In this document: positions 7,304 to 15,546 of the stretch, piece by piece
Layout: each line of letters begins with the position of its first letter
Numbering within the stretch: the stretch's first letter is position 1
Assembly (NCBI GenBank): GCA_013816855.1
Contig: JACDDT010000016.1
Coordinates: forward strand, 1-43,088
Direction of reading: 5' to 3'
Length of the DNA: 43,088 bases
From: Gemmatimonadaceae bacterium
GTDB lineage: Bacteria; Gemmatimonadota; Gemmatimonadetes; Gemmatimonadales; Gemmatimonadaceae
The notes under the pieces: model-generated
Databases searched by the model: none
What the model saw: the letters and a program-made list of their open reading frames with translations, nothing else
What the model was told of the DNA's origin: nothing
Made by a program: the position numbers and the translations under genes

Positions 7304-8116
7304 ATGAAGAAGAATCTTTTACTGCTCTCATCCACAGCGCTGCTTTTTGGCTGCGCGTCCGCCGGATCCGTGTCCACGCAGGATGAAGTGCAGATAGGCG
7401 CGCAGGAAGCGCAGCAGGTCAACGCGCAGCTTCCCATGGTCAACGACGCGCAGATCAACAACTACGTGAACACGCTCGGCAACCGCATCGCGAGATTGAC
7501 CTCGCGCGGAAGCGAGCTGAACTGGCAGTTCCAGGTGGTGAATAGCAGCGACGTCAATGCGTTCGCGATACCGGGCGGATACATCTACGTCAATCGCGGC
7601 GTGATCGAGCGCGCGTCAAACATGAGCGAGCTCGCGGGAGTGCTAGGCCACGAGATTCAGCATGTGGTGAAGCGGCATACCGTGAAGCAGATGGCGCAGG
7701 CACAAAACGCCAATACCGGCGTCGGGATTCTTTGCGGGATCACGAGCGTTTGCAACAGCGGCGTCGCGCAGGCGGGGATCCAGGTCGCCGGCACTGCGGT
7801 GTTCGCCAAGTTCGGCAGAGGAGACGAAATCCAGGCGGACGAAGGCGGCTTTGACAACGTGCTTCGTGCGGGCATCGACCCACGCGGCATGTACACCTTC
7901 TTCCAGAAACTTCTCGCTGAACAGCAAAGTTCCGGCGGCGGCGGGACTGCGGGCTGGTTCTCCGATCACCCGGGAACGCAGGACCGGCTCGCCGACATTC
8001 AGAAGAAAATCACCCAGGCCGGCAAGCTGACTGGATTGCAGAGGGACGAATCGGCCTTCCAGACGATCAAGGCGAGAGTGAACAGAATGGGTCCGGCGCC
8101 CAGGCCACAGAGGTAG
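7304..8116 (+). CDS. M48-family metalloprotease lipoprotein
   Basis: This is a 270-residue protein with a lipobox LLFGC (Cys17), so it is probably anchored in the outer membrane facing the periplasm. The zinc site is HEIQH (H116, E117, H120) with the downstream ExxxD motif (E175 to D179 in DEIQADEGG). Also typical are NAFAIPGGYIYVNRG before the zinc motif and WFSDHPGTQDRLADI after it. E. coli relatives LoiP (YggG) and BepA (YfgC) degrade or help to fold envelope proteins. Start supported by AGAGG nine bases upstream. The gene is divergent from the MBL gene and is followed at once by the his promoter and leader: its TAG stop abuts the candidate -35 box. Confidence 0.9.
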   Translation: MKKNLLLLSSTALLFGCASAGSVSTQDEVQIGAQEAQQVNAQLPMVNDAQINNYVNTLGNRIARLTSRGSELNWQFQVVNSSDVNAFAIPGGYIYVNRGVIERASNMSELAGVLGHEIQHVVKRHTVKQMAQAQNANTGVGILCGITSVCNSGVAQAGIQVAGTAVFAKFGRGDEIQADEGGFDNVLRAGIDPRGMYTFFQKLLAEQQSSGGGGTAGWFSDHPGTQDRLADIQKKITQAGKLTGLQRDESAFQTIKARVNRMGPAPRPQR

Positions 8117-8145
8117 TTGACCCCGGTACGCCGAGCAACTAGGAT
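8117..8145 (+). promoter_or_regulatory. candidate sigma-70 promoter of the his operon
   Basis: TTGACC (8117-8122) and TAGGAT (8140-8145) are separated by exactly 17 bases. The -35 box touches the stop codon of the M48 gene. A start of transcription about seven bases after the -10 box would fall at 8152-8153, which is the ATG of the His-rich leader ORF. If so, the leader peptide is translated from a leaderless or nearly leaderless mRNA. The motif is seen; use as a promoter is inference. Confidence 0.5.
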
Positions 8146-8152
8146 TCTGACA

Positions 8153-8242
8153 ATGACGTTCTACGCGACTTTCCATGCGCATCGGCACCACGGCCTTCAC
8201 GGGTCGCGGGTCGCTCATGCGCGTAGACGCCATACTAGTTAA
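8153..8242 (+). CDS. histidine-rich leader peptide of the his operon (attenuator)
   Basis: This short ORF has 29 codons (ATG at 8153, TAA at 8240-8242). Seven of the 29 codons encode His: residues 8, 10, 12, 13, 16, 22 and 27. The core reads FHAHRHHGLH. It lies between the his promoter and the terminator in front of hisG, the position of hisL in enterobacteria, whose peptide has a run of seven His. The likely role is to sense charged tRNA-His: ribosomes stall at the His codons when histidine is scarce. AGGA at 8141-8144, eight bases before the ATG, could serve as a ribosome site if transcription begins further upstream. No similar proteins are expected from database searches, because leader peptides vary. 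Confidence 0.75.
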   Translation: MTFYATFHAHRHHGLHGSRVAHARRRHTS

Positions 8243-8301
8243 GTAGCTCGGCGTAGACTCTCTAAGCACCCGCGGCCCGTCCACTTCAGGACGGGCTTTT
8301 T
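8199..8301 (+). promoter_or_regulatory. his attenuator: antiterminator helix overlapping an intrinsic terminator
   Basis: Bases 8199-8211 (ACGGGTCGCGGGT) pair with 8268-8280 (ACCCGCGGCCCGT) in a 13-bp helix with a single G-U pair. Bases 8275-8282 (GCCCGTCC) pair with 8289-8296 (GGACGGGC) around a 6-base loop and are followed by five T: an intrinsic terminator 20 bases before hisG. The two structures share 8275-8280, so they exclude each other. A third helix, 8160-8167 with 8220-8227 (8 bp), would enclose 8199-8211 and hinder the antiterminator. A ribosome stalled at His codons 8-13 would mask 8160-8167 and so favour read-through. Base pairing is read directly; the switch is inference from known his/trp attenuators. 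Confidence 0.7.
8275..8301 (+). terminator. intrinsic terminator upstream of hisG
   Basis: An 8-bp GC-rich stem (GCCCGTCC/GGACGGGC) with an ACTTCA loop is followed by TTTTT. Because it lies between the his promoter and hisG, it must be conditional for the operon to be expressed, which supports attenuation. Confidence 0.8.
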
Positions 8302-8321
8302 CATTTCCATCCATTAATCAC

Positions 8322-9194
8322 ATGCTAAAAATCGCACTGCCCAATAAAGGACGACTGGCCGAAGACGCGCGCGAGCTGTTCGAGGAAGCGGGGCTTCCGG
8401 TTCGCACTCGCGGAGATCGCGCCCTCTCGGCTTCGCTCGGGTACGGCGGAGAATTCGAGGCTCTCTTCGTGCGCGCGCAGGACATTCCGGAATTCGTCGC
8501 TGACGGAGTGGCCGATGCCGGTGTCACGGGATGGGATCTCGTTTGTGAATCCGCGCGACCGGTCACATCGAGGCTGGACCTGGGGTTCGGCGAGTGCAGG
8601 CTCGTCGCGGCGGCGAAAGAGGAGAGCCACATCAGATCGCTCGAAGACATCCCGGCGGCTGCGCGCATCGCAACTTCATTTCAACGAATAACGCGCGAGT
8701 TCTTCGCGAAGAGATCGCAGGGAGTGGAAATCATTCCAATCTCCGGCGCAGCCGAGATCGCGCCATTGCTCGGCATCGCAGACATGATCGTCGATATCAC
8801 TTCTACCGGCTCGACGCTGAAGATGAACGGGTTGCGAGAGATTGGAACTCTTCTCACCTCACGCGCTCAGCTCATAACGCGAGCGGAAACAAAGCCGAGC
8901 GATGAAGTAAAAAATGAATCGCTGGATGCGCTCGCCACCGCTCTCGAATCCGTGATCCGCGCCCGGGGAACGCGCTATCTGATGGCGAACGTTCCGAAGT
9001 CGAAGCTCGACGAGGTTAAACAGATCCTGCCCGGCATCAACGGGCCGACGGTCATCGACATTTTGAACGGCGGTGACACGGTCGCGGTTCACGCAGTGGT
9101 AGACGCGGAAAAGGTTTACCGCGTCATCAAATCGCTGAAGGCGCTCGACGCGACCGGGATTCTCGTGACGCGCGTTGAGCGCCTAATGCCGTGA
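8322..9194 (+). CDS. hisG: ATP phosphoribosyltransferase, long form (histidine step 1)
   Basis: HisG condenses ATP with PRPP, the first and feedback-controlled step of histidine synthesis. At 290 residues this is the long, HisZ-independent form. It opens with LKIALPNKGRL; the PRPP loop is in DMIVDITSTGSTLKMNGL (about residues 160-175); and a C-terminal regulatory domain (from about residue 215, RYLMANVPKSKLDEVKQILPG and GPTVIDILNGGDTVAVHAV) binds histidine in known members. No purine-rich ribosome site precedes the ATG; the 20 bases between terminator and start are pyrimidine/AT-rich, so initiation may rely on an unstructured region. Its stop overlaps the hisD GTG by four bases. Confidence 0.95.
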   Translation: MLKIALPNKGRLAEDARELFEEAGLPVRTRGDRALSASLGYGGEFEALFVRAQDIPEFVADGVADAGVTGWDLVCESARPVTSRLDLGFGECRLVAAAKEESHIRSLEDIPAAARIATSFQRITREFFAKRSQGVEIIPISGAAEIAPLLGIADMIVDITSTGSTLKMNGLREIGTLLTSRAQLITRAETKPSDEVKNESLDALATALESVIRARGTRYLMANVPKSKLDEVKQILPGINGPTVIDILNGGDTVAVHAVVDAEKVYRVIKSLKALDATGILVTRVERLMP

Positions 9195-10501
9195 CCGAAG
9201 GCGCGCGATTGTTTCGATATTCAGGAACTCTCGGTTCGCTGTCGAAGGAGGATCGCGACTCGCTAGTGATGCGGGTGAAGGAAACGGACGCGCAGGTACG
9301 GGAAACGACTGCGGGTATTATCGGCCGCGTTCGCACACGCGGAGACGCTGCTCTTCGGGAGCTGGCGGTCGATTTTGACCGACAGAAACTGGCGAAGATC
9401 GAAGTTCCGGCATCCGCGGTGGGCAGTGCACTTCAGTGTCTCGATCCTGCACTCCGCTCTGCGCTCGAGCGCGCGGCGCGGAATATCGAAGCAGTGCACT
9501 CTGCGTCGCCTCCTATGAGTGTGGAGGTCGAGCCTGAGGCGGGTATCGTCGTCGGTCGGAGGCCCGATGCCCTCACCCGCGTCGGGGCTTATGCGCCCGG
9601 TGGTCGCGCGGCTTACGCGAGCAGTGTACTTATGTGCGCGATTCCCGCACGTGTGGCCGGTGTCGAAGAGATCGTTGTCTGCTCTCCGCCCGCGAAAAAC
9701 GGAGTTCCCTCCGCAATCGTTCTCGCTGCCTGTGCGATCGCGAAAGTCGACCGCGTGTTCTCTGTTGGTGGAGCGGGTGCGATCGCGGCGATGGCTTTCG
9801 GAACGGAAACCATTCCCGCGGTGAACAAGATCGTCGGGCCGGGCAACGCTTACGTCGCCGAAGCGAAGGCGCAGGTGAGCCGATTCGTCGGCATCGATTC
9901 ACCAGCGGGCCCGAGCGAGCTGCTGGTTATCTGCGATGAAAGCAGCGATCCCGACACTGTCGCGGCCGAAGTGCTCGCGCAGGCTGAGCACGACCCCGAC
10001 GCGTGCGTCGTCATCGTCGCGCTCTCGGAGTCATATGCGGACCGTGTAGCTTCTGCCGTTGCTGCAGCCATCGCGACAATCGAGCGCGCGTCCATTGCGC
10101 GCGATGCGTTGAAGGCGAACGGCGCTTTGCTCGTCGCGCGTGACGCGGCTGAAGCGCTCGAGTTCTCATCTGATTATGCGCCAGAGCATCTTTTGCTCGC
10201 GGCAGTGGACGCGCCGCGTCTGGCAGCCGTGGCCCGGAACTCCGGATGCGTCTTCATCGGCGAGAGCTCCTCGGTTGTATTCGGCGATTATATCAGCGGA
10301 GGGAATCACGTCCTCCCTACTGCGGGCGCGGCGCGCAGTTACTCCGGGCTCGGGCCCCTCGACTTCGTGCGGTGGACTTCTTATCAGAGAATTTCCCGCG
10401 ACGCAGCTGAAAGCCTCGCTCTCGATACCGCCCGCCTCGCCGAGGCAGAGGGTCTCGGCGCACACTCAGCCGCGGCCCGTCGTTGGTCGGAGGCACGATG
10501 A
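9191..10501 (+). CDS. hisD: histidinol dehydrogenase (histidine steps 9-10)
   Basis: HisD oxidises L-histidinol to L-histidine in two NAD-dependent steps. The start is a GTG overlapping the hisG stop (GTGA). At 436 residues it has the usual length. Visible signature segments are GGRAAYASSVLM, VDRVFSVGGAGAIAAMAFG, NKIVGPGNAYVAEAK, DSPAGPSELLV, and AEVLAQAEHDPDA, where Gln and His are zinc ligands. Further zinc ligands are the Asp in VVFGDYISGGNH and the His in AEGLGAHSAAAR; the catalytic His is in YAPEHL. All active-site residues I can identify are present. The second half of the last motif is followed by only a few residues, as in other HisD proteins. Confidence 0.95.
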   Translation: MTEGARLFRYSGTLGSLSKEDRDSLVMRVKETDAQVRETTAGIIGRVRTRGDAALRELAVDFDRQKLAKIEVPASAVGSALQCLDPALRSALERAARNIEAVHSASPPMSVEVEPEAGIVVGRRPDALTRVGAYAPGGRAAYASSVLMCAIPARVAGVEEIVVCSPPAKNGVPSAIVLAACAIAKVDRVFSVGGAGAIAAMAFGTETIPAVNKIVGPGNAYVAEAKAQVSRFVGIDSPAGPSELLVICDESSDPDTVAAEVLAQAEHDPDACVVIVALSESYADRVASAVAAAIATIERASIARDALKANGALLVARDAAEALEFSSDYAPEHLLLAAVDAPRLAAVARNSGCVFIGESSSVVFGDYISGGNHVLPTAGAARSYSGLGPLDFVRWTSYQRISRDAAESLALDTARLAEAEGLGAHSAAARRWSEAR

Positions 10502-11535
10502 TGATTCCAAAGGCGCGCAGCGGATACGACGGAATCACGATTTACTCTCCGAAGGTCGAGTCGTGGCGCATCGACTTGAGCGACAATACGAATCAGTGGG
10601 GCCCACCGCCTGCCGCGCGGCGCGCGCTAGACGCGTTGAGCGCGAACGAGTATGCGCGGTATCCACAGCCGTACTCGACCGACTTGAGAGCGCTGCTCGC
10701 CGAGTATGCCGGAGTGAAGCCGGAGATGATCGTCGTCGGATGCGGCTCGGACGACATCATCGACTGCACGATGAGAGCGTTCGCGGAGCCCGGTGAGGTG
10801 GTCTGCGCAATGGAACCGACGTTCGGTATGGTTCCGGTTTTCGCGAAGATGAACGGACTCCGGAGTGTCGGTGTTCCATTGAGCGAAGACGGCTCCGTTG
10901 ACAGCGCGCGTATTCTCGCTGTGCGTGGCGCGGTGACATACATATGCACCCCGAACAATCCCACAGGATGCGCGATTCCTTTTCGAACGGCCGCTGAGAT
11001 CGTTGAGGAAGCAGAAGGGCTCGTTATCGTTGACTGCGCTTATGCGGAGTTTGGCGGAGAAAGCATGACCGCTCTCGCGTCGAGCGGAAGAGCGGTCGTG
11101 ACACGCACGATGTCGAAGGCGTTCGGGCTGGCCGGGCTCAGAATCGGTTACGGAATTGCGTCGCCGCAGATCGTGCTCGCGATCGAGAAGGCTCGCGGTC
11201 CATACAAGGTCACCATCGCAGCGGAGGCCGCAGCGATGGCTGCGCTCAGCGAGGATCTGAAGTGGGTTCGATTGCGTGCGGATGAAGCAATCGCAAATCG
11301 AGAGAGATTCTCCAGTGAGCTCCGCGCGCTCGGCTATTCACCGCTGCCTTCATCGGCGAATTTTGTACTCGTCCCGGTCGGCGACTGCGACGCGACCATG
11401 GGAAAGCTTCGCGCGGCGGGCATCGCGGTGAGAGGATTTCACGCGGTCGAAGGAATCGGTGACGCGGTGCGAATAACCATCGGTCCCTGGGAAATGATGC
11501 AAGAATGTCTGGACGCTCTCGGTGCGGCTGCGTGA
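10498..11535 (+). CDS. hisC: histidinol-phosphate aminotransferase (histidine step 8)
   Basis: HisC is a PLP enzyme that converts imidazole-acetol phosphate and glutamate to histidinol phosphate and 2-oxoglutarate. The ATG at 10498 overlaps the hisD stop (ATGA); the next codon is also ATG, and a TTG at 10483 is less likely. The 345-residue product has LSDNTNQWGPPP for substrate binding, VVGCGSDDIID, CTPNNPTG, VDCAYAEFGG, and the PLP lysine in TMSKAFGLAGLRIGY, then the phosphate-binding Arg in AVRITIG. Members of this branch can overlap in activity with aromatic aminotransferases, but the operon context makes the His role secure. Confidence 0.95.
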   Translation: MMIPKARSGYDGITIYSPKVESWRIDLSDNTNQWGPPPAARRALDALSANEYARYPQPYSTDLRALLAEYAGVKPEMIVVGCGSDDIIDCTMRAFAEPGEVVCAMEPTFGMVPVFAKMNGLRSVGVPLSEDGSVDSARILAVRGAVTYICTPNNPTGCAIPFRTAAEIVEEAEGLVIVDCAYAEFGGESMTALASSGRAVVTRTMSKAFGLAGLRIGYGIASPQIVLAIEKARGPYKVTIAAEAAAMAALSEDLKWVRLRADEAIANRERFSSELRALGYSPLPSSANFVLVPVGDCDATMGKLRAAGIAVRGFHAVEGIGDAVRITIGPWEMMQECLDALGAAA

Positions 11536-12149
11536 CAACAATCGCGCTCCTCGATTACGGGACCGGGAATCTTCACTCGCTTGCCAAGGCAATGGCGCGC
11601 GTAGGCGAAGTTCGAATTGCCGATGACGTTTCGGACGCACTTTGCGCCGATATGCTCGTCCTTCCCGGAGTCGGAGCTTTCGGCCAGGCAGCGAGCGAGA
11701 CCGCTCCCTTCAGAGGAGAAATCAGATCGGCGCTTGCGGAAGGGCTGCCCTGCATAGGCGTTTGCCTCGGAATGCAGCTGCTGTTGGACTCGAGCGAGGA
11801 GAGCGCTGGCGAAGGCATTGGCCTCATCGGAGGCAGTGTGCGGCGGATAAGCGCGAAGCGCCTTCCGCAAATGGGATGGAATAGCGTCGATTGGGATTCT
11901 GTCGCCCGGCCTTCCCGTGCTTCGCTGCGGGTCCCGCGCCTCGAGGTCGCCTATTTCGCGAACAGCTTCGTCGCTTCACCGAGCGACGAGTCGAGTGTCG
12001 TCGCGTGGGCGACTCACGAAGGAGACCGCTTTCCTTCTGTAGTGCGCACCGCCAATACCGTCGGCATCCAGTTTCATCCGGAAAAAAGCTCGCGTGCGGG
12101 CGTCGACTTTCTCTGCGGCGTCGCCGAGGAGCTGCTGGCGTGCAGGTGA
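11532..12149 (+). CDS. hisH: imidazole glycerol phosphate synthase, glutaminase subunit
   Basis: HisH releases ammonia from glutamine and channels it to HisF. The GTG at 11532 overlaps the hisC stop (GTGA) and gives 205 residues beginning near TTIALLDYGTGNL, the normal N-terminus; longer in-frame starts lie inside hisC. The class I amidotransferase triad is present: Cys in GVCLGMQLL, and His and Glu in GIQFHPEKS. The oxyanion strand LPGVGAFGQ and PQMGWNSVDW are also typical. HisF is encoded three genes downstream in the same operon. Confidence 0.95.
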   Translation: MTTIALLDYGTGNLHSLAKAMARVGEVRIADDVSDALCADMLVLPGVGAFGQAASETAPFRGEIRSALAEGLPCIGVCLGMQLLLDSSEESAGEGIGLIGGSVRRISAKRLPQMGWNSVDWDSVARPSRASLRVPRLEVAYFANSFVASPSDESSVVAWATHEGDRFPSVVRTANTVGIQFHPEKSSRAGVDFLCGVAEELLACR

Positions 12150-12853
12150 TTCCGGCAATCGACATTCGCGAAGGCGCGTGCGTTCAACTCGTCGGCGGCT
12201 CGTACGACGACGAGCGCGTGCGCATTGCCGATCCGCTCGAGGCTGCTGCCAAGTGGGCGTCCGCCGGCTTCACCCGCCTGCACATCGTCGATCTCGACGC
12301 CGCGACGGGACGAGGAGAGAATCGGGATGTCATTAAAGACATAATCTCCTCGACGCGGATGACGGTTCAATGCGGCGGCGGCATTCGTGACTTCGATTCG
12401 ATCGAGGACGTTCTTTGCTTCGGCGCGTCGGCCGTAGTCCTCGGCACGCGCGCGCTGGAGAATCGGCCGTGGCTCGAGGAAGCGTCATCGCGCTTTGCCG
12501 GCGAGCTGATAATCGCTGCCGACGTGCGCGAGCGGAAAATCGTGACGCGTGGGTGGGAGCGCGAGCTGCCTGTAGATGCGATCGATACGATTCGGCAGCT
12601 CAATGACCTGCAGCTCGCCGGAGTTCTCGTTACCGCCGTTCACCGTGAGGGGCAGATGAAGGGCCCGGATCTCGCGCTTGTGCGGGACGTGGTCGGCGCG
12701 ACGACCCACGCAGTGCAGGCGTCGGGTGGAATCGGCAACATGATGGACCTGGAGGATCTCGAGTCAGCGGGCGCAGGCTCGGCGATTGTGGGGATGGCTT
12801 TGTACACGGGGGCGTTGGCTCCCGAAACAGTGAGCAAGGAGTATTCAAAGTGA
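12140..12853 (+). CDS. hisA: ProFAR isomerase (histidine step 4)
   Basis: HisA opens the ribose ring of ProFAR to give PRFAR in an Amadori rearrangement. I chose the GTG at 12140 (product starting MQVIPAIDIREG, 237 residues) because AGGAG lies eight bases upstream; this overlaps hisH by 10 bases. A GTG at 12146 would give the 4-base GTGA overlap seen at other junctions. The (beta/alpha)8 barrel landmarks are there: the catalytic Asp in PAIDI, HIVDLDAATG, VQCGGGIRD, LGTRALENRPW, the second Asp in IAADVRE, and the phosphate loops QASGGIGN and AIVGMALYTG. Confidence 0.93.
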   Translation: MQVIPAIDIREGACVQLVGGSYDDERVRIADPLEAAAKWASAGFTRLHIVDLDAATGRGENRDVIKDIISSTRMTVQCGGGIRDFDSIEDVLCFGASAVVLGTRALENRPWLEEASSRFAGELIIAADVRERKIVTRGWERELPVDAIDTIRQLNDLQLAGVLVTAVHREGQMKGPDLALVRDVVGATTHAVQASGGIGNMMDLEDLESAGAGSAIVGMALYTGALAPETVSKEYSK

Positions 12854-13386
12854 GCAGAGTGAGCAGAGAGACTACGGAGACATCAGTGAGGGTGTCGCTC
12901 GAGCCGGGAGATGGAAAAGCAAACATCGAAACCGGAAATCGATTTCTCGACCATATGATGACCGCGTTTGCGAAGTACTCCGGACTGGACACGGACATTT
13001 CGGCGCGAGGTGACCTCAAACATCATCTCATCGAAGATGTCGCACTGACTCTGGGAAAGTGTTTCAAGGAAATCGTGCCCAACGGAGCCGCGCGATATGG
13101 AACGAGCACGGTACCGATGGACGACGCACTCGTTCAGGCGAGCGTGGACATCGGTGGCCGGTCGTTTTATCAAGGAGATTTGCCGAGCCGGCTATACGAT
13201 CATTGGATGCGATCGTTTGCGGGTGAGGCTGGAGTAACGGTTCATATCATCGTGCTGCGCGGCAGCGACAGGCATCACATCGTCGAAGCGGCGTTCAAAG
13301 CGCTCGGCCTGGCCCTGCGCGACGCGCTCGTGGACACCGGCGCGATCTTTAGCACAAAGGGCCGGGTGTCGGTAACTGTCGAATGA
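12850..13386 (+). CDS. hisB: imidazoleglycerol-phosphate dehydratase (histidine step 6)
   Basis: HisB is a manganese enzyme that dehydrates IGP to imidazole-acetol phosphate. This is the monofunctional 178-residue form without the histidinol phosphatase domain found in enterobacteria. The GTG at 12850 overlaps the hisA stop (GTGA); a second GTG follows at 12859. NRFLDHMM and the second metal motif [16 protein letters not shown] are normal. The first metal motif reads [16 protein letters not shown]: it keeps HHxxED but lacks about three residues and the Asp pair found before it in most members (GDL..DDHHTVED). I take this as a known-looking short variant, still active, because the operon has no other candidate. 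Confidence 0.92.
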
Positions 13387-14144
13387 CCCTCTTGAAGCGA
13401 ATCATCGCCTGCCTCGATGTGGATGAAGGTAGGGTGGTTAAGGGTGTGGAGTTCGTCAATCTCACGAGTGTCGGCGATCCGGCGGCGATGGCGGAGCGAT
13501 ATGAAGCGGACGGCGCTGACGAGATCGTCTTCCTCGACGTGTCCGCGACACATTCGGGCCGCGCAACGCTGCTCGACGTTGTTTCGAGAACGGCGCAGCG
13601 CCTGTTCATTCCGCTGACAGTTGGCGGCGGTGTCCGCACTGTGTCCGATGTCGACCTCGTTCTGCGCGCAGGCGCGGACAAGGTCGCCGTAAATTCCGCT
13701 GCCGTGAGCAACCCGCTGCTTCTAACCGAAGCATCGGTGCGCTTTGGCGCTCAATGCATAGTGGCGAGCATCGATGCGCGGTCGCGCGAGGGCGGATGGG
13801 AAGTTTACGTCAACGGAGGAAGAGTGCCGACAGGACTGGATGCGATCGACTGGGCGAGGCGTTGCGCCGACCTCGGTGCGGGCGAGATTCTCATGACCAG
13901 TATCGACCGCGATGGAACGCGCTACGGATACGATCTCGATCTTGTCGCCCAAGTGTCGGAAGCGGTGAACGTTCCGGTAATTGCATCAGGCGGCGCCGGT
14001 AACGCGAAGCACATCTCCGAGGCTTTCACTAGTGGTGCCGATGCGGCCCTGCTCGCGGGAATACTTCACGACGGAACGACTGATCTCCTAACGCTGAAAG
14101 CGGAACTCCTCCGCGAAGGGCATACCGTGCGGAGAGCAGCATGA
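13383..14144 (+). CDS. hisF: imidazole glycerol phosphate synthase, cyclase subunit
   Basis: HisF uses ammonia from HisH to close the imidazole ring, giving IGP and AICAR. The ATG overlaps the hisB stop (ATGA) and the 253-residue length is standard. Landmarks are [16 protein letters not shown] (catalytic Asp in CLDV), [21 protein letters not shown], the phosphate loops and [26 protein letters not shown] (second catalytic Asp) and [12 protein letters not shown]. The substitution of the frequent KGxxF segment is conservative (KGVEFVNL). Confidence 0.95.
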
Positions 14145-14914
14145 GCGTGCACAACTACCTCGAAGCAGCGGCTGAAGTTGCGAGAGTCGCGGGAAAAGTT
14201 GCGCTTGGCTACTACGGCAAGAATCCCGAGCAGAAGATCAAGGCCGACGGAACGCAGGTGAGCGTTGCGGATCTCGAAGCGGAACGCACGGCGCGTGAGT
14301 GGATTGAGAAGCGATTTCCCGGCGATGGAATTGTCGGGGAGGAATTTCCGACGGTAAGAGAATCTGCCAAGCGGAGATGGATCATCGATCCCATCGACGG
14401 AACCTTCACCTTTTTGAGAGGAGTTCCGTTCTGGGGAACGATCGTAGCCGTCGCTGAAGGAGATGACGTTGTTGCGGGCGCTGTCTGCTGCTCGGCGCTC
14501 GGCGAGGAAATCAGCGCAGCGCCGGGGAGCGGCTGCTGGTTCAACGGGTCGAGATGTAAAGTGTCCGACACAGCCGATCTCTCAAAAGCCACGCTTCTCA
14601 CTACGGACTCGCGCTTCCTCGGCGATAGTTCCCGCCGGGAACGATGGACGGGTCTTCAGAATTCCGTCGGAGGAATGCGTACCTGGGGCGACTGTTACGG
14701 TTACATACTCGTCGCCACCGGGCGAGCGGACATCATGGTAGACAACACGGTATCAGCTTGGGATGCCGCGGCGCTGATGCCAATTATCACCGAGGCAGGC
14801 GGCGTGCTCACTGATTGGAAGGGAAATGCCACGCCTTTCGGCGGCGACGCGATCGCCACGAACGCCGCGCTCTCCGGTCAGGTACTAGAGATAATGAAAG
14901 GCGGCGCCTCTTGA
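14141..14914 (+). CDS. hisN: inositol-monophosphatase-family histidinol-phosphate phosphatase
   Basis: This protein most probably hydrolyses histidinol phosphate, step 8 to 9 of the pathway, because hisB lacks the phosphatase domain and no PHP-type HisK is present. It belongs to the inositol monophosphatase family, like HisN of actinobacteria. Mg-binding motifs are GEEFP (Glu), [10 protein letters not shown] (Asp, Asp) and [17 protein letters not shown] (last Asp). Length 257 residues. The ATG overlaps the hisF stop (ATGA), and its own stop overlaps the hisIE start. Family is certain; the specific substrate is inferred from position within the operon. Confidence 0.85.
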
Positions 14915-15546
14915 AGCCGAAACTCGATATCGACACGCTGCGGTTCGACGCGGAGCGGGGCACTGTGGTGGTCGTCGCTCAGGATTCGGTGACGGGGCGA
15001 GTGCTGATGGTTGCGTACGCTGACAGAGAAGCGCTCGAGATGACGATGCGAACAGGGGAGATGCACTATCGCTCGCGCACGCGCGGGCTTTGGCACAAGG
15101 GAGCGACGAGTGGAAATGTGCAGCGGGTCGTATCGCTTTCGGCTGACTGTGACGCCGACACCGTGCTCGCGCGCGTCGTACCCGCGGGACCTGCCTGCCA
15201 TTCGGGGGAGATCTCGTGCTTCGGTGCAGAGGCAGGGGCAAATGCGTTTTCGGATTTGAGTTCGGTGGTCTCGAGCCGGGCGCAGGCTGAAGCGACGGCG
15301 GGAGGCAAGCCGAGTTATACGCGTAAGCTGCTCGCGGACCGGAATCTGCGGCTCAAGAAGATCGGGGAGGAGGCCGCGGAGCTGGTCACTGCGTGCGCTG
15401 ACGAACACAAGCCAAGGGCCGTCGAGGAGGCCGCGGACTTGATCTATCACGTCGGTGTGGTGTTGGCTGGAGTCGGATCAGGGCTGGATGAGGTTGGGAC
15501 GGAACTCGTACGCCGTGCGGGGGTGGAATTGAGAGGCGAATCGTGA
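14911..15546 (+). CDS. hisI: bifunctional phosphoribosyl-AMP cyclohydrolase / phosphoribosyl-ATP pyrophosphatase
   Basis: HisIE catalyses steps 2 and 3. I choose the TTG at 14911, which overlaps the preceding stop (TTGA) as at the other junctions, giving 211 residues. The cyclohydrolase domain (about residues 8-110) has VLMVAYADREALEMT, YRSRTRGLWHKGATSGN, the metal segment SADCDADTVLARV and CHSGEISCF. The pyrophosphohydrolase domain (about 120-205) has SYTRKLLADRNLRLKKIGEEAAELV and EEAADLIYHVGVVL, with the acidic Mg-binding residues (EEAAE and the Asp in AADLIYH). It is the last his gene; 99 bases separate it from the next gene. Confidence 0.93.
   Translation: MKPKLDIDTLRFDAERGTVVVVAQDSVTGRVLMVAYADREALEMTMRTGEMHYRSRTRGLWHKGATSGNVQRVVSLSADCDADTVLARVVPAGPACHSGEISCFGAEAGANAFSDLSSVVSSRAQAEATAGGKPSYTRKLLADRNLRLKKIGEEAAELVTACADEHKPRAVEEAADLIYHVGVVLAGVGSGLDEVGTELVRRAGVELRGES

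Follow-up and report, generated by a model that had tools for sequence, protein, structure and literature searches.

The window, a stretch of 43,088 nucleotides (contig JACDDT010000016.1) from a Gemmatimonadaceae bacterium, carries a histidine operon on its plus strand, in which a profile search recognized hisG, hisD, hisC, hisA, hisB, hisF, hisN and hisIE in that order (Table 1). The matches for hisC, hisA, hisB and hisN all score below the NCBI curated cut-offs, and since the hisA profile match begins at residue 86 of the listed open reading frame, the true start of this gene is probably further inside. A further ORF of 214 amino acids lies between hisC and hisA (11505-12149). Upstream of hisG and on the same strand, a gene for an M48-type protease ends at nucleotide 8116, its best match being far under the equivalog cut-off. 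A clear Shine-Dalgarno (SD) sequence is absent from the 20 nt before hisG (8302-8321), and among the 162 loci described below SD-like motifs precede hisG in just 29.

Table 1. Features of the attenuator region and histidine operon in the window
Feature	Position	Strand	Basis
-35 hexamer TTGACC	8117..8122	+	promoter scan; TTGAC in place in relatives
-10 hexamer TAGGAT	8140..8145	+	promoter scan; TANNNT in place in relatives
his leader peptide ORF, 29 codons + TAA, 7 His codons	8153..8242	+	direct reading; relatives
Leader hairpin 5' arm (His-codon segment), enclosing the antiterminator arm in the no-ribosome fold	8172..8182	+	folding
Antiterminator 5' arm, within leader ORF (codons 16-20)	8199..8211	+	complementarity; permutation test
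Leader hairpin 3' arm	8217..8227	+	folding
Antiterminator 3' arm, 6 nt common to terminator	8268..8280	+	complementarity; permutation test
Intrinsic terminator stem-loop, 8-bp stem	8275..8296	+	hairpin scan; conserved pairs
Terminator T run (T5)	8297..8301	+	direct reading
hisG, ATP phosphoribosyltransferase with C-terminal domain	8322..9194	+	TIGR00070 (E 8.1e-64), TIGR03455
hisD	9191..10501	+	TIGR00069
hisC-like aminotransferase	10483..11535	+	TIGR01141, 266.7 bits, under cut-off 276.55
hisA	11891..12853	+	TIGR00007, 223.6 bits, under cut-off 228.95
hisB (dehydratase)	12850..13386	+	NF002114, 169.1 bits, under cut-off 189
hisF	13383..14144	+	TIGR00735
hisN-like phosphatase	14141..14914	+	TIGR02067, 265.2 bits, under cut-off 275.15
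hisIE	14815..15546	+	NF002747, 190.4 bits, over cut-off 187

An earlier note on this DNA had read the interval before hisG as a classical his attenuator, made up of a sigma-70-like promoter, a 29-codon leader ORF with seven histidines, a 13-bp antiterminator and an 8-bp terminator with a T5 run that share six bases and end 20 nt before hisG. All of these parts could be read directly. The promoter hexamers, TTGACC and TAGGAT, are separated by a 17-nt spacer and match the consensus at 9/12 positions; this is the one promoter found in 7900-8500, against 0.1 expected in shuffles. The leader ORF runs from the ATG at 8153 to a TAA stop (8240-8242) and encodes the peptide MTFYATFHAHRHHGLHGSRVAHARRRHTS, with histidine at positions 8, 10, 12, 13, 16, 22 and 27. 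Upstream of this ATG the frame stays open as far as a TTG at 8117, so the choice of start relies on the promoter and on relatives, not on the window alone. The 13-nt antiterminator comprises 12 Watson-Crick pairs and one G-U pair, and bases 8275-8280 of its 3' arm are common to the terminator stem (8275-8282/8289-8296). The terminator scan found one hairpin against 0.5 in shuffles, so that the hairpin by itself is no proof; it is conservation that supplies it. Folding of 8140-8310 is more stable than that of any of 200 dinucleotide shuffles (z -3.73). The window also contains a 14-nt inverted repeat (8127-8140/8242-8255, 13/14 complementary) joining the promoter spacer to the region past the leader stop, where 60 dinucleotide shuffles never gave more than 11 complementary positions; it would fall partly outside a leaderless transcript.

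For comparison, regions upstream of hisG were taken from the genus, family and phylum of the window and from 80 named loci, which gave 162 distinct loci after exact duplicates had been collapsed. Matches to hisG were found in 107 genomes of the family and 210 of the phylum, and the subset examined consists of automatically selected loci and 80 chosen stretches; six loci with less than 200 nt upstream were left out, as were L010 and L012. Many genomes of the phylum carry a divergent HisG, and ten such loci were sampled (L165, L166, L196-L203). Most of the named Gemmatimonadota records in the set are metagenome-assembled genomes.

The search of related genomes for a His-rich ORF upstream of hisG, which the earlier note had proposed, gave a clear answer: a leader with at least four His in 12 codons lies ahead of hisG in 152/162 distinct loci, spread over Gemmatimonadota, Myxococcaceae and Eisenbacteria. 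With the leader capped at 80 amino acids the count is 151/162, against 3/162 on the reverse strand, 21/3240 mononucleotide shuffles and 21/2011 windows drawn at random from the 80 named loci, and on these figures its position upstream of hisG is not a chance occurrence. By group, the leader is present in Myxococcaceae (19/19), Eisenbacteria (4/4), order-level relatives with the same HisG type (4/4), families f4 (5/5), f5 (14/17) and f7/f8 (3/3), same-family genomes with divergent HisG (2/2), and the remaining Gemmatimonadaceae and named Gemmatimonadota, including four otherwise-titled records (101/103). One of the two misses in the last group, L126, reads HHHAHAHH and then runs into Ns in the assembly. 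The leader is not universal among the sampled hisG loci: it was not detected in 10/162, among them the representatives of f9 (0/1), f6 (0/1), f2 with divergent HisG (0/1) and f11 (0/2). Five of the ten divergent-HisG loci (L165, L166, L197, L198 and L199, with HisG 32-40% identical) have a His-rich leader, accompanied by a different terminator sequence or by none that was detected; the leader could either have been kept after gene replacement or have evolved anew.

Aligned upstream of the leaders are TTGAC, a spacer of 17-18 nt, TANNNT, a few bases and the start codon. A strict promoter test was passed by 103/152 leaders and by 87/3040 shuffles, and in 98 of these 103 the gap between the end of the -10 element and the start codon is 5-10 nt; the 49 leaders that failed include all 19 from Myxococcaceae. 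TANNNT ends 3-12 nt before the assigned start in 111/152 leaders versus 6.2% of shuffles, these distances being approximate because starts were set by rule (the nearest ATG, else the nearest GTG or TTG, before the His cluster). Outside Myxococcaceae and Eisenbacteria, TTGAC is in place in 110/129 leaders, TANNNT in 109/129 and both in 95/129. Both are placed in 2/4 Eisenbacteria. In Myxococcaceae TANNNT is in place in 0/19, though TTGAC is in 10/19, and in several a start codon lies 36-38 nt past TTGAC. The leaderless reading is therefore limited to loci outside these two groups, and for Myxococcaceae it is possible but unsupported.

In the window the -10 hexamer ends 7 nt ahead of the leader ATG, which places the predicted transcript start at about 8152-8153, so that the leader mRNA would itself be leaderless; we consider this geometry likely. 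Other genes of this lineage appear to share it. Across 13 genomes, a promoter of this kind is followed at 5-8 nt by ATG 115 times and by GTA 40 times. The ORFs that begin at the nine other promoter-ATG matches in the genome of the window (L204-L212) are all 108 amino acids or longer, and seven of them have a Pfam family (IMPDH, phosphoribosyltransferase, DnaA, PTS EIIA, MarR, pseudouridine synthase and ArsR). In two relatives, 11 of 20 such matches were inspected and one, L216, opens just 7 codons. Leaderless mRNAs, including those of the dnaA, IMP dehydrogenase and tRNA pseudouridine synthase genes, seem to be common in the Gemmatimonadaceae lineage to which the window belongs.

The earlier note had also suggested looking for co-variation in the two helices, and both were found to co-vary. 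A usable antiterminator pair was obtained from 116 of the 162 loci, yielding 101 unique arm pairs. Across all 101, an arm pairs more strongly with its own partner than with permuted partners (-23.13 versus -20.67 kcal/mol, 0/10000), and the same holds for the 58 pairs less than 75% identical (-22.86 versus -20.35 kcal/mol, 0/10000). Ungapped column-by-column co-variation of the antiterminator is nearly flat, which we attribute to bulges that shift the register, and for this reason the whole-arm permutation test was used instead. When the leaders are resampled synonymously, the real antiterminator comes out as only modestly stronger (mean z -1.4; 45/141 leaders at 5/100 or better), a conservative control since the arm lies in sequence that the peptide already constrains. 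Between the first His codon of the cluster and the arm the median distance is 30 nt (101 leaders). A hairpin followed by a T run occurs upstream of hisG in 143/162 loci and in 141/152 of those with a leader, leaving 11/152 in which the scan detected no intrinsic terminator. Immediately beyond the CCCGTC/GACGGG core, two terminator pairs are canonical in 114/116 and 115/116 loci, with swaps between G-C and A-T; the next two pairs are canonical in just 77/116 and 66/116.

The behaviour of the switch was modelled with the leading edge of the ribosome set 12 nt beyond its A-site codon and with pairing forbidden for all RNA upstream of that edge. For the window, placing the ribosome at codons 8-12 on a transcript cut short of the 3' arm of the terminator gives an antiterminator probability of 0.85-0.99; this falls to 0.19 with the ribosome at codon 13 and to zero from codon 14 on. 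On the full transcript without a ribosome the terminator has a probability of 0.999, and it is still favoured (0.90-0.94) with the ribosome at codons 8-12. On the cut transcript without a ribosome the antiterminator wins anyway (0.98). These last two equilibrium results oppose a purely thermodynamic switch, and the decision would therefore have to rest on timing, that is, on the order of folding and the position of the ribosome. Among the relatives, the terminator reaches at least 0.8 on the full-length transcript in 98/101, and the antiterminator reaches at least 0.5 on the cut transcript with a stalled ribosome in 90/101.

An additional 8-bp helix (8160-8167/8220-8227) had been proposed in the earlier note to sequester the antiterminator arm. 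The complementarity is present in the window, but it does not hold up as a conserved element: its energy is -4.7 to -7.3 kcal/mol in L002, L004 and L005, the nearest relatives examined for it, versus -15.3 in the window, and across 54 non-redundant leaders the segments before the His codons and after the arm barely beat permuted ones (131/5000). This helix may be restricted to the window alone. Minimum-energy folds of the window instead pair 8172-8182 with 8217-8227. This leader hairpin, with similar pairing in L001, L002, L004 and L005, is kept as a local feature; as a general protector of the arm it was rejected, co-variation between the His segment and the post-arm segment being absent from the wide set (3006/5000). 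The segment downstream of the antiterminator arm fits it no better than permuted segments do (4873/5000). Before the partner of the arm emerges, median pairing of the arm in the relatives is 0.72 whether or not a ribosome is stalled, and a conserved sequestering hairpin therefore finds no support in these data.

Taken together, the leader in 152/162 loci, the swaps in the terminator and the co-variation of the antiterminator support what the earlier note had concluded, and we are highly confident that the element is a classical ribosome-mediated transcription attenuator of the his operon which senses charged tRNA-His. The start of the leader transcript, leader translation, the response to histidine and termination itself are predictions from sequence. 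According to the proposed mechanism, transcription would start at or a few bases from the leader ATG, and a ribosome would load on the 5' end as it emerges. When charged tRNA-His is scarce the ribosome would stall at the first His codons (8-12), leaving free the 5' arm of the antiterminator, which starts about 25 nt past the stall; this arm could then pair with its 3' partner, block the terminator and allow RNA polymerase to continue into hisG. When histidine is plentiful the ribosome would cover the arm, the leader would fold on itself, and the terminator would form and end transcription near 8301. Such a switch probably turns the his genes on only when histidine is short.

The same attenuator might instead be preceded by an ordinary 5' untranslated region, with AGGA (8141-8144) as its SD sequence on a transcript from further upstream, for example by read-through from the protease gene. 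AGGA does lie 8 nt ahead of the ATG in the window, and the 14-nt inverted repeat noted above would matter only in a transcript that contains nucleotide 8127. At the site of AGGA, however, relatives have TAGCCT, TACGCT, TAGCTT or another TANNNT, which is a -10 element and not an SD, and whereas SD-like motifs precede the start in 9/152 leaders, TTGAC lies in the right interval (-45 to -22 of the assigned start) in 122/152. We therefore regard an untranslated region of this kind as unlikely, and AGGA is best read as a part of the -10 element.

The remaining alternatives concern what the leader does rather than where its transcript begins. A stalled ribosome might govern Rho access or the initiation of hisG translation in place of an intrinsic terminator, and the 11 leader loci in which no such terminator was detected indicate that other outputs may exist in some relatives; yet the window and the great majority of leader loci have the hairpin and T run, and the terminator co-varies, so for this element we give that explanation very little weight. 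Least probable of all is an independent function for the product of the His-rich ORF as a small metal-binding protein, with the terminator belonging to that ORF. Runs such as HHHHAHH could bind metal on general chemical grounds. Against this, the ORF is fixed upstream of hisG even where HisG is divergent (L165, L166 and L197-L199), and the conservation of the peptide tracks RNA pairing. The motif [TSAP]GR[GD], as in GPTGRG, follows the His run in 74/152 leaders, and the antiterminator 5' arm begins at it in 53 of the 56 motif-bearing leaders with an arm pair, so that peptide conservation at this point appears to serve the pairing of the RNA.

If the reading as a leaderless his attenuator is extended beyond the window, this would be the usual his control of Gemmatimonadota with this type of HisG, the ribosome loading at nucleotide 1 and so coupling leader translation to RNA polymerase from the first base on, in the absence of an SD. 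Under this reading the operon, together with its attenuator, would also have been passed between Gemmatimonadota, Myxococcaceae and Eisenbacteria. To this whole proposition we assign roughly an even chance. In a quick, unrooted tree of 81 HisG rows the Myxococcaceae are placed among the Gemmatimonadota, and their HisG is 61-66% identical to that of the window, comparable to many Gemmatimonadaceae. With rows sampled by similarity to the window, this is compatible with a possible transfer, in either direction, of the operon together with its attenuator. Two records, titled Comamonas sp. KCTC 72670 (L072) and Candidatus Kuenenia stuttgartiensis (L057), are probably mislabelled or contaminated, since their HisG proteins group in the tree with those of Myxococcaceae and of Gemmatimonadaceae.

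A separate element, the palindrome TGTGAA-N4-TTCACA, was found with at most one mismatch in 53/162 hisG upstream regions (43 of them perfect; for example L006, L024, L055, L100, L113 and L135) and with at most two mismatches in 54/162 versus 15/3240 shuffles. In 45 rows it begins 69-215 nt upstream of the leader ORF, and beyond it lies a divergent gene of the cupredoxin (plastocyanin/azurin) family in all four loci checked. The best match in the window has 4 mismatches. The palindrome resembles a Rex or CRP/FNR operator.

Were this interpretation correct, classical His-sensing attenuation would extend to the phylum Gemmatimonadota, for which we found no earlier report in openly licensed papers, and it would suggest how histidine supply controls the his genes of bacteria that are represented mainly by metagenome assemblies. 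It would also open to testing the general idea that loading and stalling of a ribosome on a leaderless mRNA can be rapid enough to guide RNA polymerase. As a marker for small leader ORFs, the combination of promoter, start codon, His run and an arm about 30 nt past the first His codon could be of use. We found neither a leaderless his attenuator nor, for Gemmatimonadota or Myxococcota, a his attenuator of any kind in the openly licensed literature; some of these taxa may already be listed by Lopatovskaya et al. 2010 or Vitreschak et al. 2004. At the gathering threshold, neither the window nor 8 relatives matched any Rfam family, His_leader (RF00514) included, and the window matched no T-box family. 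Three permissive matches in the leader (cut-off E 10; E 0.48-7.4), none of them His_leader, were judged to be due to chance.

In E. coli, hisL is preceded by an SD and encodes seven consecutive His. Unlike it, the leader in the window appears to be leaderless and its His codons are interspersed (HAHRHH). The title of one study names polycysteine leaderless ORFs in mycobacteria. Attenuators ahead of hisG are known from gammaproteobacteria and His leaders from Firmicutes (PMC9413887, PMC4833913), and a 2016 paper from the Lyubetsky group, with reference to work from 2010, lists gammaproteobacteria under hisG and species of Clostridium and Bacillus under hisZ (PMC4833913). As in the window, the attenuator of E. 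coli and Salmonella is described as having His codons in a short leader ORF and mutually exclusive antiterminator and terminator, directly upstream of hisG (PMC9413887). The His leaders of Firmicutes (the Bacillus cereus group and others) similarly combine terminator, antiterminator and leader peptide, with 3-5 consecutive His codons (PMC9413887), but belong to a different phylum. The same paper gives a consensus for the operator of HisR/TrpR-type repressors.

Two further comparable systems come from other phyla. In Sinorhizobium meliloti, an alphaproteobacterium, the RNA of the trpL attenuator is reported to begin with the ATG of the leader ORF (PMC7298713), as we propose here, but it senses Trp. 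In the actinobacterium Streptomyces lividans, leuL, trpL, ilvL, metL and thrL are reported to be leaderless, with a -10 of TAnnnT as in the window; unlike the window, several lack a clear intrinsic terminator, and a His leader is not among the eight leaders given in the accessible portion of that report (PMC8079986). An earlier survey, as far as its available text goes, found no RNA structure ahead of actinobacterial histidine operons (PMC1262725). The type of switch and leaderless Trp, Leu and Ilv leaders are already known, and what is apparently new in the window is their probable union in a leaderless his attenuator.
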